In this document: positions 40,633 through 48,730 of the stretch, one piece after another
Position numbering within the stretch: the first letter of the stretch is position 1
How the letters are laid out: each line of letters opens with the position of its first letter
NCBI GenBank assembly: GCA_001664505.1
Contig: CP011806.1
Span: forward strand, 389,067 to 453,066
Source of the DNA: Acidobacteria bacterium Mor1
GTDB lineage: Bacteria; Acidobacteriota; Polarisedimenticolia; Polarisedimenticolales; Polarisedimenticolaceae
Direction of reading: 5' to 3'
DNA: 64,000 nt
Made by a program: the position numbers and the translations under genes
The notes under the pieces: model-generated
Database searches by the model: none
Told to the model about the DNA's origin: nothing
Seen by the model: only the letters and a program-made list of their open reading frames with translations

Positions 40633-41148
40633 ATGGGGGCCTGGGGCACCGAAGAGCTCGAGGCGCTGTACGCGCGACTGCAGAAGCCGCTCTACAACGT
40701 GGTCTTCCGGCTGGTCTGGAACCGGGAGGACGCCACGGAGCTGGTCCAGGAGACCTTCGTCAAGCTCTGGAACAAGCGCAGGAAGATTCGCGGCGAGACC
40801 GTCGAGGCGTTGGCGTACCGCATCGCGTTGAACCTGGCTCGCTCGTTGCTGCGCAAGCGCCGGGTGCGGAGCAGGCTCGGGTTCGGCGCCGAGGCCGATG
40901 TGGATGAGGTGGTGTTGCCCCGGGCAACCGGCGAGGACCGTGCCCTCGAAGCGGAGCGCGCGGTGGAGGTCCGGGAGGCGGTCGCCGGCTTACCCCCGGA
41001 CCTGCGGGAGGTGCTGTTGCTCACCGAGTTGAGTGAGTTGCGCTACGACCAGATCGCCGTGACCCTGGGCATTGCCGAGGGGACGGTCGGGTCCCGCCGC
41101 AGCCGGGCGTTGAAGCGGTTGCGTCTTGCCATGGGAGAAGCACCTTGA
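40633..41148 (+). CDS. ECF-family RNA polymerase sigma factor
   Basis: Protein of 171 residues with sigma region 2 (LYNVVFRLVWNREDATELVQ) and region 4 (LPPDLREVLLLTELSELRYD, then VTLGIAEGTVGSRRSRALKR). No Shine-Dalgarno precedes ATG 40633, so it may depend on translation of the lipoprotein just upstream. The next gene starts at a TTGA overlap and is probably its anti-sigma factor. Confidence 0.9.
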   Translation: MGAWGTEELEALYARLQKPLYNVVFRLVWNREDATELVQETFVKLWNKRRKIRGETVEALAYRIALNLARSLLRKRRVRSRLGFGAEADVDEVVLPRATGEDRALEAERAVEVREAVAGLPPDLREVLLLTELSELRYDQIAVTLGIAEGTVGSRRSRALKRLRLAMGEAP

Positions 41149-41615
41149 CCCGTGATCGCCTGTTCCTGGAGCTGGATCCCGAAGGGGGAGGGGTGGCCGA
41201 TCTGCGACGGCGGATCGGGCGCGCACGGGCTCGGCGGCGGCGGGGTTACGTGGTCGCCTCGCTGCTGGTGGCGTCCCTGTTGTCGACCCTCTGGTTCGGT
41301 CCGGTCCTGATCCCCGGAGGGGCAAGCCGGGCAGCGGCAATGCTCGGCGACGACCTGCTGGCGATCGAACTGGGCTATCAGGAGCCGCCGGCCGAGGCGG
41401 TCAGCGTGCGGGACGGTCTGAGACACCGGGTCGCCGTGAAGCGAATGCCCACACGGAATCCCAGGGTGGCCTACTACCTGGTCGGCAGTTTGGCTACGTC
41501 CGCGCCGGTTCCCGGGAACTCTCCGGCGACGTACCCGGATGACCCTCGCCACGATGGAGCATCGCCGGCGGAGCCACTCCCGCCGAACGGAACCCCTCGA
41601 GTACCCGCTCGGTAA
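41145..41615 (+). CDS. Single-pass membrane protein, probable anti-sigma factor
   Basis: Protein of 156 residues from TTG 41145, overlapping the sigma-factor stop as TTGA. An Arg-rich cytoplasmic N terminus (RIGRARARRRRG) is followed by one membrane helix (YVVASLLVASLLSTLWFG, about residues 35-52) and a short outer part. The call as anti-sigma factor rests on position and topology; no zinc (HxxxCxxC) motif is seen. The last 122 bases lie antisense to the 3' end of the MscS gene. Confidence 0.6.
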   Translation: MTRDRLFLELDPEGGGVADLRRRIGRARARRRRGYVVASLLVASLLSTLWFGPVLIPGGASRAAAMLGDDLLAIELGYQEPPAEAVSVRDGLRHRVAVKRMPTRNPRVAYYLVGSLATSAPVPGNSPATYPDDPRHDGASPAEPLPPNGTPRVPAR

Positions 41616-42345
41616 CGTCGGAGGCGAAGGCTTTCTCGAACTTGACGTCGAGGACGTAGGCCTTGGCCCGCAACTGCACCGCGTAGTAGCCGTCCTGGGT
41701 CACCACGCTGGTCAGCACGTTCCACGGATGCTTGAGGTGGATGTAGCGGCTGGAAGCCAGCGCCTCCTCGACGATCCGTTTGGCTGCCGGGATGTCCTGG
41801 TCGGGGCCGATCAGGAAGTCCAGCTGGATCATCATCTCCACTGCGCCGGCGTTCCCCGAGGCGACGCTGTCGGTGAGGAACTTGCTGTTGGGGATGGTGA
41901 TCTGGGTGTCGTCGAGGGTCACCAGCCGCACCGAACGCAGGCCGATGTGTTTGATCTCGCCGTAGTAGCCGTCGAAGGTCACCCGGTCGCCGACCTGGAA
42001 CGGTTTGTCGACCAGCACGATCAAGCCGGCGATGATCGACGCGACGAGATCCTTGAGCGCGAAGCCAAGGGCCACCGCGGCAGTGCCGCCCAGGGCGAAC
42101 AAAACCTCGTTGGTCAGGTGCACCACCGTGGCGACCATCGCCAGGGCGCCGACGAGGTAGATCCCGAAACGAAGGAACGAGGCGGCCTGGTTGATCGCCA
42201 GGCGGCGGTCGGCGAAGCGTTGGCCGAGCCGGTCGAGGCTGCGGGTGGTGAAGCGCGCCGCGATGACGGTCAGTACCAGGAGCAGCAGCGCGAAGGGAAT
42301 CCCCTCGGGCTTCAGAAACTGGATGATACTGGTCTGCTCTTCCAC
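41494..42345 (-). CDS. mscS: Small-conductance mechanosensitive channel, MscS family
   Basis: Protein of 283 residues, about the size of E. coli MscS. Hydrophobic helices occupy the first 110 residues; the pore helix with Ala/Gly packing is GGTAAVALGFALKDLVASII. The beta domain follows with VGDRVTFDGYYGEIKHIGLR and ITIPNSKFLTDSVASGN. It would release solutes on membrane tension. GTG start, 11 bases after the ATPase gene, so the two are likely one operon. Confidence 0.93.
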   Translation of the reverse strand: MEEQTSIIQFLKPEGIPFALLLLVLTVIAARFTTRSLDRLGQRFADRRLAINQAASFLRFGIYLVGALAMVATVVHLTNEVLFALGGTAAVALGFALKDLVASIIAGLIVLVDKPFQVGDRVTFDGYYGEIKHIGLRSVRLVTLDDTQITIPNSKFLTDSVASGNAGAVEMMIQLDFLIGPDQDIPAAKRIVEEALASSRYIHLKHPWNVLTSVVTQDGYYAVQLRAKAYVLDVKFEKAFASDVTERVLEGFRSAGVAPPAMLHRGEGHPGTSPESSREPART

Positions 42346-42356
42346 GGATCACCTCG

Positions 42357-45128
42357 TCAATCGGGGAGCAGGTTGTTGCGGGTCAGCACCCGGATGACCG
42401 CCCGGTGCCAGTAGGTCGAGAGCCGGTAGCGGCGGTCGATGCGGGTCAGCATCTTGCGGTCGCGCATCTGTTCGAGCTGGATGCGGCAAACCGCCTCGGG
42501 GTAGCGGGTGACCTTGGCCGCCTCGGCCAGGGAGAGATTCTCGTGAACCACGATTGCCGCCAGCAGGAACAGCGCCCGCTGGCCGAGTTGCAGCAGCTCG
42601 TTCTCCGACGGCTGGCGGAACAGCTTGATCCGCACCCGGTTGTCGTCGACGGGCACCAGCGACCGCAGCCAAAAGTGAAGCGCCACCCGGGGCAGGCCGC
42701 TGGAGTAGTCCCAGATCAAGCGTGAGTAGCCTTCCGCCGCTTCGACCACCCGTTCGTCGAAGGCATCCCGTTCGGCCCGCTCGGCCAGCAGCGCGTCGTA
42801 CTCCACCTGGACCCCCGAGGCCTCGGCCCGCCGCTGGATCAGCGCGCCGATCTCTTCTTCAGTCCAGGGCCGCAAGACCTCGTGGTGCCGGAAGATCATC
42901 AATTCCGGATGCACCGCGAACAGGTGTTCGCAGGCGAAGGCGGAGATGCCGCAGATCCAGAACACCTTGTCCGAGGTGCTCTCGATCAGGGAGATGAACG
43001 CCTCGATCACCTTGTAGCCGCCGACACGGGAGACGAACAGGTTCTGCATCACGTCGACCACGGCGATGCGGGGCGGTCCGTCGCGGAGAGCCTTGCTCAG
43101 CGAAGCCAGGTCCTTGCACTCGTCGTCGGGCGCCAGGTGCGGGGCCAGCAGGTTGCGCAGGGCGTGTTCGGTGTGGATGCGGCTGCGGATCGGGATGTGG
43201 ATCACCGGCAGGTCGCCGCCGTCGATCCGGTTGAGCCAGGTGGTCTTGCCGATCCCCTTGGGTCCCGACAGCAGGAAGCTTCCCCGGGTGTCGTCCTCGC
43301 GCCAGCGGGCCAGCATTTCGGAGAGTTTCTCCCGGCCGGGGAAGCGGTCGACCAGCAGTTCGGCGCTCTGGGCCGGGGCCTCGGCGGCGGCATCGACCAG
43401 GGTGGCCGGAAGGGCGTCGATGGCCACGTCGGCGTAGCCGCTGACCTCGGCCTGCTTTTCCATCCGGCGCCGGAAGATGAAGGCCAAGGCCTTGCGGGTC
43501 TGATCGAAGCTGAGAGCGAAATCACGCAGCACCACGCCGAGGCCGTGGACCGCCAGCCAGCCGAAGGCGGCGGCGACGACGAAGAAGCCGTACCAGCGGT
43601 TCCGGGTCCGCTCGACCAGCCGCGCCAGGCGACCGTCCCGCCCGGCTCCCAGGTAGGCTTCGGCGATGACCGGGCGCCAGCGCGCGATCAGGAAGAAGAA
43701 GGCGATGATGCCGATGACCCAGGCCGCCTGGACCACCTTGTGGAACAGCACGCCGCGGCCGAGCACCTCGGCCGAGAGCAGCAGCAACGCGGCCAGGGCG
43801 AAGCTGACCCGCATCACCGTGCGGATCGTGCGCAGGATCTCCCTGCGCCGGGAGGGGGCGACCGACATGTGATAGCGGCGGGTCAACCACAGAGCCAGGG
43901 CGTAGGTCAGCGCCGTGGCCAGGGCGTAGATGCCGTAGAGGAACAGAAGCCGCAGGGGCAGGTCGATCTCGGGCCGGCTCGCCAGGCCTCCGAGGGCCCA
44001 GCGCACCGCCAGCACCAGCAGCAGCACCAGCAGCGACGGCATCAGGGTTGCCGTCAACTCCGCGAGGGAGCGTAGGCGGCGGCGGCCCCGGCGGGTCGCG
44101 CCGAAGGTGTCCGCCCACTCGAGGAGCTTCTCCCGCAGGGCCTGGCGTCGCTGGCGCAGGGCCAGCAGCAGCGTCAGCACCACCAGCAGCTTGAGGGCGA
44201 TCCAGGTCAGGCGTCCGACGGCGAACAGATCGTCCAGCAGGGCGGGGATTTCACGCAGGGTACGCAGCGTGCGGTGGACCCAGGCCTCGACGCCGATGCG
44301 CAGGCGCTCGATCTCGAGGGTCAGGGCGTCGAAGCCTTCACGGCTGATGCCCAGCAGTGCTCGCCGCCGTTCCCGGGGCAGGGCTTCGATGGCCCCCTCG
44401 CGGGCCTGGTAGAGGCGGCTCATCAACCGGGCTCGAGCGTCGAGCAATTGCCAGCAGCCGTCTTCCTGGCGCCGCCGGATTTCGGTCTCGGCCTCGCGGA
44501 TCTGCTGGAGGCGCTGATCCAGTTCGGCGAGCTGGGCGTGGAAGGCCGGAGTATCCAACCCCCGGGTATCCAGCCGGGGAGCGAAGGGCGCAAGCCCCGG
44601 CACGAGCTCGGTGCGTTCCATGGCATCGGCCAGGCGGGGCTGCTCTCGTTCGAGCAAGCCGAGCAGCGCTTCGTAGATCCGGGTCGCGGAGCGGTCATCC
44701 TCCGCCCGTTGACTCAGTTCGGCGGCGCGCTCGGCGGTAGCGGTTTCCGCTTCGCGAATCGATTCGAGCTCCCGGGCGCGTTCGGCCTCGACCGCCGCCG
44801 AGAGGGTTGCCAATGCCTCGAGATGGACGTCCGCCCGTGCGATTTCCCGATCGAGAGTTTCGGCGAGGCCGCTACGGGCAGCATCTCCGGTGGGACCGGC
44901 GTCGGCGGTCGGTCGGACCTCGGCCGGGACCGGGAGCGGCTCTCCGCCGGCTTGCGACTCCTCGGACTCGGCCGGGGGTGTTCCGGTAGGGGTGCCGCCC
45001 GACGGCTCGTCGGTCGACTGGGCCGCGACGGGAAGCCACAGACAAAGGGCGAGCAACCAGAGCGGGAAGGGAACTCCTGCCCGTGGCCACCGGCACCTTT
45101 TTACTCGGTGCGTACGATCGAGACTCAC
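42357..45128 (-). CDS. Membrane-bound AAA/STAND-type ATPase with C-terminal winged helix
   Basis: Protein of 923 residues. A signal-like N terminus (VPFPLWLLALCLWLPVAAQ) is followed by a Glu-rich coiled coil (about 75-225), then several membrane helices (about 306-560, e.g. LTWIALKLLVVLTLLLALRQ and VVQAAWVIGIIAFFFLIAR). The cytoplasmic part starts VDRFPGREKLSEML, as in AAA_16/ORC-type ATPases. It has Walker A GPKGIGKTTWLNRI (about residue 621), Walker B IAVVDVMQ and SGLPRVALHFWL as a sensor-2-like Gly-x-Pro. The end looks like a winged helix. The membrane part recalls large MscS-family proteins but lacks the MscS pore; the next gene is MscS. Start GTG 45128 is my best choice; the open frame continues upstream only as antisense of the divergent gene. 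Confidence 0.75.
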   Translation of the reverse strand: MSLDRTHRVKRCRWPRAGVPFPLWLLALCLWLPVAAQSTDEPSGGTPTGTPPAESEESQAGGEPLPVPAEVRPTADAGPTGDAARSGLAETLDREIARADVHLEALATLSAAVEAERARELESIREAETATAERAAELSQRAEDDRSATRIYEALLGLLEREQPRLADAMERTELVPGLAPFAPRLDTRGLDTPAFHAQLAELDQRLQQIREAETEIRRRQEDGCWQLLDARARLMSRLYQAREGAIEALPRERRRALLGISREGFDALTLEIERLRIGVEAWVHRTLRTLREIPALLDDLFAVGRLTWIALKLLVVLTLLLALRQRRQALREKLLEWADTFGATRRGRRRLRSLAELTATLMPSLLVLLLVLAVRWALGGLASRPEIDLPLRLLFLYGIYALATALTYALALWLTRRYHMSVAPSRRREILRTIRTVMRVSFALAALLLLSAEVLGRGVLFHKVVQAAWVIGIIAFFFLIARWRPVIAEAYLGAGRDGRLARLVERTRNRWYGFFVVAAAFGWLAVHGLGVVLRDFALSFDQTRKALAFIFRRRMEKQAEVSGYADVAIDALPATLVDAAAEAPAQSAELLVDRFPGREKLSEMLARWREDDTRGSFLLSGPKGIGKTTWLNRIDGGDLPVIHIPIRSRIHTEHALRNLLAPHLAPDDECKDLASLSKALRDGPPRIAVVDVMQNLFVSRVGGYKVIEAFISLIESTSDKVFWICGISAFACEHLFAVHPELMIFRHHEVLRPWTEEEIGALIQRRAEASGVQVEYDALLAERAERDAFDERVVEAAEGYSRLIWDYSSGLPRVALHFWLRSLVPVDDNRVRIKLFRQPSENELLQLGQRALFLLAAIVVHENLSLAEAAKVTRYPEAVCRIQLEQMRDRKMLTRIDRRYRLSTYWHRAVIRVLTRNNLLPD

Positions 45129-46879: not shown

Positions 46880-48730
46880 TTGTCCCGCTCCCGCGGCAGC
46901 TTCGATCCGCTGCACAGCGACCTCCCGGTGGTCGGCCAGGGAGCGTTGTCCGCAGTTCGGCCTTCGCGCAACAGCCGGTGGCGGGCGCTGGTGCTGCTGC
47001 TGGTCCACGGTCTGATCGCTGCGCACATCGCCCACTACTTCGCCGCCGGCCGCACCGTCTCGCCGGTGGAGCCCTCCGAGGCGATGTACACCCTGGAATT
47101 GGGGCAGCTCAACGCCGGCTTCCTGTTCCTGGTGGCGGCGCTCCTGTTGACCGCCGTCTTCGGCAGGTTCTTCTGCGGCTGGGGCTGTCATCTCGTGGCG
47201 CTCCAGGATGCCTGCGCCTGGTTGATGAAGCGGATCGGTATTCGGCCTCGTCCGTTCCGTTCCCGGCTTCTCTTGTGGGGGCCGGCGGCGTTGGCCTTTT
47301 ACATGTTCGCCTGGCCGACCCTTCGGCGCTGGTTCGAGGGGGGCTCGCTTCCGCCGCTGAGCGACCACCTGTTGACCGACGCGTTCTGGAAGACCTTCCC
47401 GGGACCGCTCTTCGCGGTGCTGACCTTCCTGGTTTGCGGGTTCGCCGCGGTCTACTTCCTCGGCGCCAAGGGCTTCTGCACCTACGGGTGTCCCTACGGT
47501 GCGCTGTTCGCCGCGGCCGACAAGGTCGCCCCCGGCCGCATCCTGGTGAGCGATGCCTGCACCCAGTGCGGACATTGCACCGCGACCTGTACCTCCAACG
47601 TGCTGGTCCACGACGAGGTGCGGCGTTTCGGACGTGTCGTCGATCCGGGCTGCATGAAGTGTCTCGATTGCGTCAGCGTCTGCCCGGAGAACGCGTTGCG
47701 GTTCGGTTTCGGGCGGCCGTCGCTCTTCGGTCCGAAGCCGGCGAAGCCGGGGCCCCGTGTCTACAACCTGAGCCTGTCCGAGGAACTGTTCGTCGCCGCG
47801 GTGGCGCTGGCCGCGACCCTGGCGTTTCGCGGCCTCTATGACGGGCCGCCCCTATTGATGGCCGTCGGGCTCGGCGGCATCACCGGGTTCGTCGCGCTGC
47901 AACTCGCTCGGTTGTCCGCGCCGGGTAGCGTGCGGCTGCAGAATCTGCGGCTGCGCAGCGGGGACCGGATGCGGCCGGCAGGTTGGTTCTTCGCGCTCTC
48001 GGGCCTGGCCTGGATCCTGTTCACGGCCCATAGCGGCTACGTGCAGGCGGAGCGGCGGCTCGGAGTCCGGGCACTGGATCGTGGTGAGATGGCGGCGGCC
48101 CGGTCCCACCTGGGACGCGCCGACCGCGCCGGACTGGTGCCGGTCCCACAGATCGACTACGGCCTGGCCCTCATCCATCGGGAGCGGGGTGAGTGGGCGG
48201 CTGCCGAGGAGCGTTTGCGCCGCGCGGTGGCCCGTGCTCCCGAGCAGGCGCCGCTTCACGACGCGTTGATCCGGACCCTGGCGGCTCAGGGCGCCGAGGG
48301 GACCCTGGCGGCCTGGGGCGAGCGTCGCCGGCGATTCGGCGGCGATGCCGCGTTGGCCTTCTCCGCCGGCACGGCGATGGCGGGCCGGGAGCGTTGGGGA
48401 GCCGCAGTTGAGCTTCTCGAGGAGGCCTGCCGGCTGGCCCCGCAACACGGGGCGGCCTGGTTCAATCTGGGCGGGGCGCTGCGACGGCAGGGAAATCCCG
48501 ACGCAGCCCTGAGGGCCCTGGAGCGGGCCCTGGAGCGTTCGCCCGATGACCTGGAAACCCTGCTCGAGCTCGGTTTCGCAGCGGAGTCCGCCGGACGGAT
48601 CGAGCGTGCGATCGAGGCGTTCGAGGGGGTGGTCCGGCTCGATCCGGACCATGCGGAAGCTCGCGCCCGCCTCGCCGGGTGGACGTCGGGAGGCCGCGGG
48701 GAGGGGGCCCAGGGAGGCGCTCCGCGTTGA
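46880..48730 (+). CDS. NapH/CcoG-like membrane polyferredoxin fused to TPR repeats
   Basis: Protein of 616 residues from TTG 46880, supported by GGGGGAGG 5-6 bases upstream. The N-terminal half has membrane helices with FFCGWGCH and FCTYGCPYG, the Cys pairs typical of NapH-type proteins, and two 4Fe-4S sites: CTQCGHCTATC (about 227) and CMKCLDCVSVCP (about 258). A further helix near residue 380 leads into TPR-like repeats (e.g. AAWFNLGGALRRQGNPDAAL). It probably moves electrons at the membrane; the TPR half may hold partner proteins. It ends where the promoter of the next gene begins. Confidence 0.82.
   Translation: MSRSRGSFDPLHSDLPVVGQGALSAVRPSRNSRWRALVLLLVHGLIAAHIAHYFAAGRTVSPVEPSEAMYTLELGQLNAGFLFLVAALLLTAVFGRFFCGWGCHLVALQDACAWLMKRIGIRPRPFRSRLLLWGPAALAFYMFAWPTLRRWFEGGSLPPLSDHLLTDAFWKTFPGPLFAVLTFLVCGFAAVYFLGAKGFCTYGCPYGALFAAADKVAPGRILVSDACTQCGHCTATCTSNVLVHDEVRRFGRVVDPGCMKCLDCVSVCPENALRFGFGRPSLFGPKPAKPGPRVYNLSLSEELFVAAVALAATLAFRGLYDGPPLLMAVGLGGITGFVALQLARLSAPGSVRLQNLRLRSGDRMRPAGWFFALSGLAWILFTAHSGYVQAERRLGVRALDRGEMAAARSHLGRADRAGLVPVPQIDYGLALIHRERGEWAAAEERLRRAVARAPEQAPLHDALIRTLAAQGAEGTLAAWGERRRRFGGDAALAFSAGTAMAGRERWGAAVELLEEACRLAPQHGAAWFNLGGALRRQGNPDAALRALERALERSPDDLETLLELGFAAESAGRIERAIEAFEGVVRLDPDHAEARARLAGWTSGGRGEGAQGGAPR

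Follow-up and report, generated by a model that had tools for sequence, protein, structure and literature searches.

An AAA+ ATPase gene paired with an MscS channel gene in Acidobacteria bacterium Mor1, a conserved two-gene system

Organization of the locus

We analyzed a 64,000-nucleotide stretch of the Acidobacteria bacterium Mor1 genome (contig CP011806.1, positions 389,067 to 453,066; hereafter the window, numbered from its first letter), in which the gene of a large membrane ATPase (P0001) is followed by that of a compact MscS-type channel (P0002). The pair is a real and conserved two-gene system, apparently one not described before. A preliminary description, made from the letters of the window, had placed a compact MscS gene 11 bases downstream of the ATPase gene on the same strand, and we found both open reading frames (ORFs) exactly there, on the minus strand, with the ATPase gene first and the MscS gene second. 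A GAGGTGA motif lies five bases 5′ of the GTG start of the MscS gene, inside the gap, a layout as expected if translation of the two genes were coupled. The features of the pair are as follows.

42357..45128, minus strand: ATPase subunit gene with predicted sensor (P0001); 923 amino acids (a.a.), GTG start; homologues by profile search
44889..45128, minus strand: P0001 residues 1-80, signal-like hydrophobic stretch (17-37) and disordered linker; hydropathy, predicted local distance difference test (pLDDT) <50
44235..44888, minus strand: P0001 residues about 81-298, long helices, predicted periplasmic, resembling the C-terminal portion of the periplasmic domain of MscK; model
43443..44234, minus strand: P0001 residues about 299-562, six hydrophobic helices and an amphipathic helix (536-562); hydropathy, model
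42606..43415, minus strand: P0001 residues about 572-841, AAA+ ATPase; motifs, model, fold match
42360..42605, minus strand: P0001 residues about 842-923, winged helix; model, Orc1/Cdc6 alignments extending to 919-920
42346..42356, minus strand: intergenic gap of 11 nt with the Shine-Dalgarno-like GAGGTGA for the MscS gene
41494..42345, minus strand: MscS pore subunit gene (P0002); 283 a.a., GTG start; Pfam, transmembrane (TM) prediction, tree

Distribution and adjacency of the pair

Given that a single-protein genome scan returned one relative only, we used profile searches. Homologues of the ATPase were rare. A first survey found them in 5/100 relatives; a profile of the ATPase by itself detected 19 loci, spread over 17 of the 396 genomes searched in the window's phylum. 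A profile of the C-terminal part, built from 19 members, recovered 19 loci in the 396 genomes at E<1e-30, the next matches being generic P-loop proteins at ~1e-10 or weaker. Two members of the family belong to a second phylum, and three lie on plasmids (Caulobacter and Novosphingobium).

An MscS gene lies directly downstream, on the same strand, in all 23 ATPase loci whose 3′ end is intact (the window; L002, L007, L009, L010; L030-L043; L045, L046, L089; and L140), which include two pairs of close relatives and so represent about 21 independent cases. The two members from the second phylum and the plasmid copies of Caulobacter and Novosphingobium are among the 23. The ATPase gene always comes first, and the gaps are mostly short. 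Even assuming a generous 10 MscS genes per 3,000 genes, the probability of chance adjacency is far below 1e-40; the adjacency is not chance. The preliminary description had proposed that ATPase and channel form one functional unit and had named adjacency among homologues as the check; the 23/23 count, together with the co-occurrence of both genes in the same genomes (below), supports this. The G037 locus was excluded from the count, as its ATPase and partner-type MscS genes are each cut at separate N gaps (L008:9897-9996 and L159:6739-6838). In this single-contig metagenome-assembled genome, the order of the N-gap scaffold separates the ATPase from MscS, and the pair has probably been split by assembly through a scaffolding error. 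No description of the pair was found in the open-access literature, which is weak evidence with most subscription papers lying outside that search.

The MscS partner

The P0002 protein is a full MscS homologue with a predicted pore function. It matched PF00924 (E 2.9e-19; 69.4 bits against a cut-off of 20.2), has three predicted TM helices, a small-residue pore helix, and a cytoplasmic alpha/beta part, and is collinear with solved MscS and MscK structures over nearly its full length. Among solved structures, the partner MscS profile matched MscK best, and V91/F95 of P0002 aligns with the MscK gate pair. In MscK, TM1-6 form an outer bundle, while TM7-11 and the cytoplasmic domain form the channel core, gated by V921/F925 (PMC9653487).

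Using a threshold of E<=1e-55 to define partner-type MscS, we found such channels in 16/396 genomes, all 16 among the 17 with the ATPase and none in the other 379 (Fisher 1e-27). The sole ATPase genome without a partner-type call, G143, has a divergent MscS adjacent to its ATPase. In a tree with 34 further MscS, taken from related genomes and from the loci themselves, the partner MscS form one clade (support 98/93). P0002 is a full homologue of the small-conductance channel, but its clade is separate and, within the genomes searched, occurred only where the ATPase was also present. The solitary non-partner MscS that were checked had no ATPase neighbour. The main groups of the ATPase tree recur in the MscS tree, and the distances of the two correlate at r 0.91, a value that none of 5000 Mantel permutations matched. 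Residues conserved in partner MscS and not in other MscS fall mainly in the cytoplasmic domains, where they may plausibly form a docking surface.

These data also bear on whether the two genes simply serve the same stress, without any physical link, and are held together by operon transfer. No evidence of an interface was obtained, as this explanation would have it; nonetheless, the strict ATPase-first order in 23/23 loci, the mostly short gaps, and the exclusive co-occurrence across 396 genomes make it very improbable.

We did note a second, different MscS clade (support 100/100) that adjoins the pair in several lineages, also across phyla, as if a two-channel cluster travelled together. Its members, placed by the tree, are as follows.

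L002:4026-4583, L009:12202-13113, L037:10177-11256, and L045:7514-8572: second-clade MscS genes beside the pair

The C-terminal half of the ATPase

The C-terminus of the ATPase, an AAA+ domain followed by a winged helix, is constant across the family. In the window ATPase it carries a Walker A motif (622-GPKGIGKTT-630), a Walker B-like AVVDVMQ, GLPR at about 811-814, and the winged helix at about 842-917. The AlphaFold2 model of this part (pLDDT 83.6) found its closest folds, for residues 571-919, in Orc1/Cdc6, TnsC, and related AAA+ proteins (Foldseek; VIA Z 14-16), with a Z of 15.5 to 1w5t over residues 573-920 (321 aligned; root-mean-square deviation, rmsd, 5.9). The winged helix, which had been noted from the letters, is modelled at about 842-923, and the Orc1/Cdc6 alignments run through it.

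The earlier label of an "AAA/STAND-like" ATPase is upheld in its first half by these Orc1/Cdc6- and TnsC-type folds, while the STAND half is not settled. Pfam gave only sub-threshold AAA matches in the window ATPase; the nSTAND1 cut-off was passed by one homologue (28.4 against 27.1 bits), P0001 itself being unmatched, and NLR structures were among the Foldseek matches of the ATPase model. The Gly-x-Pro segment described earlier is present in the window ATPase and several membrane-type relatives, and absent in the soluble subgroup. With STAND and NLR switches the ATPase has in common the P-loop, the Gly-x-Pro (in the window's subgroup), and the winged helix; it differs from them in the soluble subgroup's lack of Gly-x-Pro, in an N-terminal position of the sensor, and in that no repeat domain was found in this ATPase.

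Walker A is kept in the aligned relatives and altered in L042 (GERGTGKRT). Walker B is of the hhhD type, which together with Walker A is as in STAND NTPases; its first acidic residue is present in nearly all relatives, and the second position is Val in the window. Given this Val after the Walker B Asp, hydrolysis may be weak or slow in the window ATPase, and a slow rate would be more fitting for a switch than for a motor.

The fold of AAA+ domain and winged helix is common to Orc1/Cdc6 and TnsC, but those proteins act on DNA, at replication origins or in transposition; the window ATPase instead carries a predicted membrane sensor and has a channel as its partner. A membrane-bound transcription or DNA-binding regulator that sits in an operon with MscS by chance would account for the winged helix, the Orc1/Cdc6-like fold, and weak helix-turn-helix matches. 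We regard this as quite unlikely, given that co-inheritance with one MscS clade and exclusive pairing demand more than a shared operon, and that winged helices are often structural in this group of ATPases.

The N-terminal half of the ATPase

In contrast to the constant C-terminus, the N-terminus is swapped among homologues, with three types recognized. Type I (the window, L002, L007, L008, L030, Caulobacter, and Novosphingobium) often begins with a signal-like stretch and has long helices followed by five or six hydrophobic ones. Type II (e.g., L009, L010, L031-L037) has a soluble helical (coiled-coil) region. Type III has a 12-TM transporter and a linker, the transporter matching Na_H_Exchanger in L039, L040, and L042 (2e-17 to 2e-21) and AA_permease in L043 (5e-48, with a weak SLC12 match). 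The exchanger fusions are as follows.

L039:6221-10741, L040:6491-10963, and L042:4794-9149: Na+/H+ exchanger-AAA+ fusion proteins, 1450-1506 a.a.

In the window ATPase, the signal-like stretch (17-37) is followed by long helices (82-298) and six hydrophobic helices between 300 and 535. When modelled residues 81-571 were compared with 350,542 PDB chains, E. coli MscK (7ux1, 7uw5) ranked 1 and 2 (Foldseek E 0.04 and 0.11), collinear over MscK residues 286-697, before the pore. The VIA Z values were 10.1 and 9.8 (about 300 aligned, rmsd 9-10), although for helical proteins Z alone is no proof. A type I profile aligned to MscK-family N-terminal halves with an hhalign score of 45.9 over 300 columns, the reciprocal run being weak; reversed, shuffled, and unrelated membrane profiles used as controls scored at most 30.3, in short alignments. 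The membrane half had no Pfam match, a PDB sequence search with it gave nothing useful, and the soluble N-termini showed no detectable kinship to the MscK half or to the window N-terminus. The collinearity of the six hydrophobic helices with MscK TM1-6 is suggestive of homology. The earlier remark that the membrane half recalls large MscS-type proteins stands as suggestive, on the ranks of MscK and a profile alignment that held in one direction; its companion, that the ATPase lacks the MscS pore, agrees with our finding no MscS domain (PF00924) in P0001.

Compared with the K+-dependent MscK (KefA) of E. coli, whose periplasmic helical domain and TM1-6 bundle resemble the sensor half of the window ATPase, the window system differs in layout: MscK holds sensor and pore in one chain and has no ATPase, whereas in the window the three-TM pore is separate and the AAA+ domain takes the pore's place. 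These likenesses support, without proving, a view of the window pair as a split MscK, with the sensor bundle and ATPase in one chain and the pore in the next gene.

The swapped N-termini also help to weigh a role in biogenesis rather than gating, whereby the ATPase would be an assembly, unfolding, or membrane-remodelling factor for MscS. The AAA+ fold fits such a factor, and obligate pairing would equally suit a chaperone; even so, we consider it unlikely, as a chaperone would not be expected to carry sensor-like or transporter N-termini, MscS channels elsewhere do without such a factor, and the window Walker B is atypical.

Gene neighbours and the question of defence

In the window, convergent plus-strand genes (a sigma-70 family factor at 40633-41148 and a second gene at 41145-41615) and a divergent upstream plus-strand ORF showed no link to the pair, and the unit here therefore comprises the ATPase and MscS genes only. 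The gene at 41145-41615 encodes a small membrane protein of anti-sigma-factor-like appearance, with no Pfam match. Further along the plus strand, 46880-48730 encodes a ferredoxin-type membrane protein, apparently fused to TPR repeats as judged from its translation.

Genes near the pair in relatives encode TrkH, TrkA, Na+/H+ exchangers, a CitMHS/TrkA_C transporter, a conserved Usp-domain transporter, and additional MscS. Together with the transporter fusions, these neighbours point to osmotic or ionic homeostasis. Other relatives have housekeeping genes nearby.

Two of these neighbourhoods deserve description. At L040:10973-14806, TrkH, TrkA, and a weakly Na+/H+ exchanger-like gene lie directly upstream of the exchanger-ATPase-MscS locus, apparently as a K+ uptake and release cluster. 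At L009:13118-15391 and L037:12436-14652, in two distant families, transporters with two Usp domains and near-identical N-termini follow the channel genes; the transporter part had no Pfam match.

The preliminary description had allowed for an osmotic response or possibly defence; the former gains from the fusions and neighbours, the latter found no support. Under a defence role, a STAND-like ATPase would sense infection and open MscS as a lethal pore. The ATPase does fall in the broad Orc/Cdc6/STAND assemblage, one homologue exceeds the nSTAND1 cut-off, and the distribution is patchy with some copies on plasmids. Against this, PADLOC models gave no significant match (best E 0.045, in the P-loop region only), phage records gave no match to the ATPase family, no defence genes were seen among the neighbours of the pair in relatives, which are ion transporters or housekeeping genes, and the sensors are transporter-like or MscK-like. 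With nothing from PADLOC, phage records, or neighbours, we rejected this role as very unlikely.

Proposed function

We consider it probable, though well short of certain, that the pair is a two-gene ion or osmotic homeostasis system, in which an MscS pore is served by a dedicated AAA+ regulatory subunit with a variable N-terminal sensor. Conservation of the pair, exclusive co-occurrence, co-inheritance, a constant ATPase with swapped N-termini, and transporter fusions and neighbours are observed. Under this proposal, the MscS gene would supply the pore. The ATPase gene would supply a regulatory subunit in which a variable sensor is coupled to a constant nucleotide switch, made up of the AAA+ domain and the winged helix. 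For the window pair, that sensor would be an MscK-like periplasmic domain and outer membrane bundle, with the ATPase standing where the MscK pore was. Membrane tension or ionic state would move the sensor, and an AAA+ ring would then change its ATP/ADP state and, from a position next to or beneath the MscS cytoplasmic cage, shift the opening threshold. In relatives, the AAA+ switch may instead read a Na+/H+ exchanger or an SLC12/amino-acid-permease-like transporter, by which solute uptake and release would be coordinated. In this scheme we infer contact, ring formation, ATP dependence, gating, and the direction in which the ATPase acts on MscS (opening it or holding it closed).

Several points weigh against this proposal. 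Contact or regulation between the ATPase and MscS rests on inference, and their co-inheritance could partly reflect transfer of the operon as a block. The window Walker B is without its second acidic residue. Transporter fusions or ion-transport neighbours occur in a minority of relatives, and the window pair stands alone. Finally, hydropathy and positive-inside loops give six crossings for the window ATPase, which would place the ATPase domain outside unless the amphipathic helix 536-562 also crosses.

A separate nucleotide-binding subunit that tunes a pore is familiar from TrkH-TrkA/KtrAB and KATP (Kir6-SUR). In those systems an RCK or ABC protein regulates a K+ channel or transporter, as opposed to AAA+ and MscS here. 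The ATPase-MscS pair would be a variant of this arrangement, to our knowledge the first for MscS, as no MscS is known to us to have an ATPase subunit dedicated to it. More tentatively, and with the odds somewhat against it, the pair could represent a general module of bacteria, an ATP-switched, split MscK: MscS would have the AAA+ switch as an obligate subunit, nucleotide state as well as tension would set its opening, and the inputs (MscK-like bundle, soluble coiled coil, Na+/H+ exchanger, or SLC12-like transporter) would be interchangeable.

MscS channels are textbook cases of gating by membrane tension, either on its own or together with a small ligand. The pair is present in culturable hosts, Novosphingobium pentaromativorans US6-1 and Caulobacter sp. 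NIBR2454. For a channel that is also K+-dependent, the split-MscK layout would let sensing and conduction be separated. If the proposal is true, the MscS threshold in some bacteria would depend on energy state or on how active a particular ion transporter is, and where the switch is fused to a Na+/H+ exchanger or an SLC12-like transporter, solute uptake would be linked directly to emergency release.

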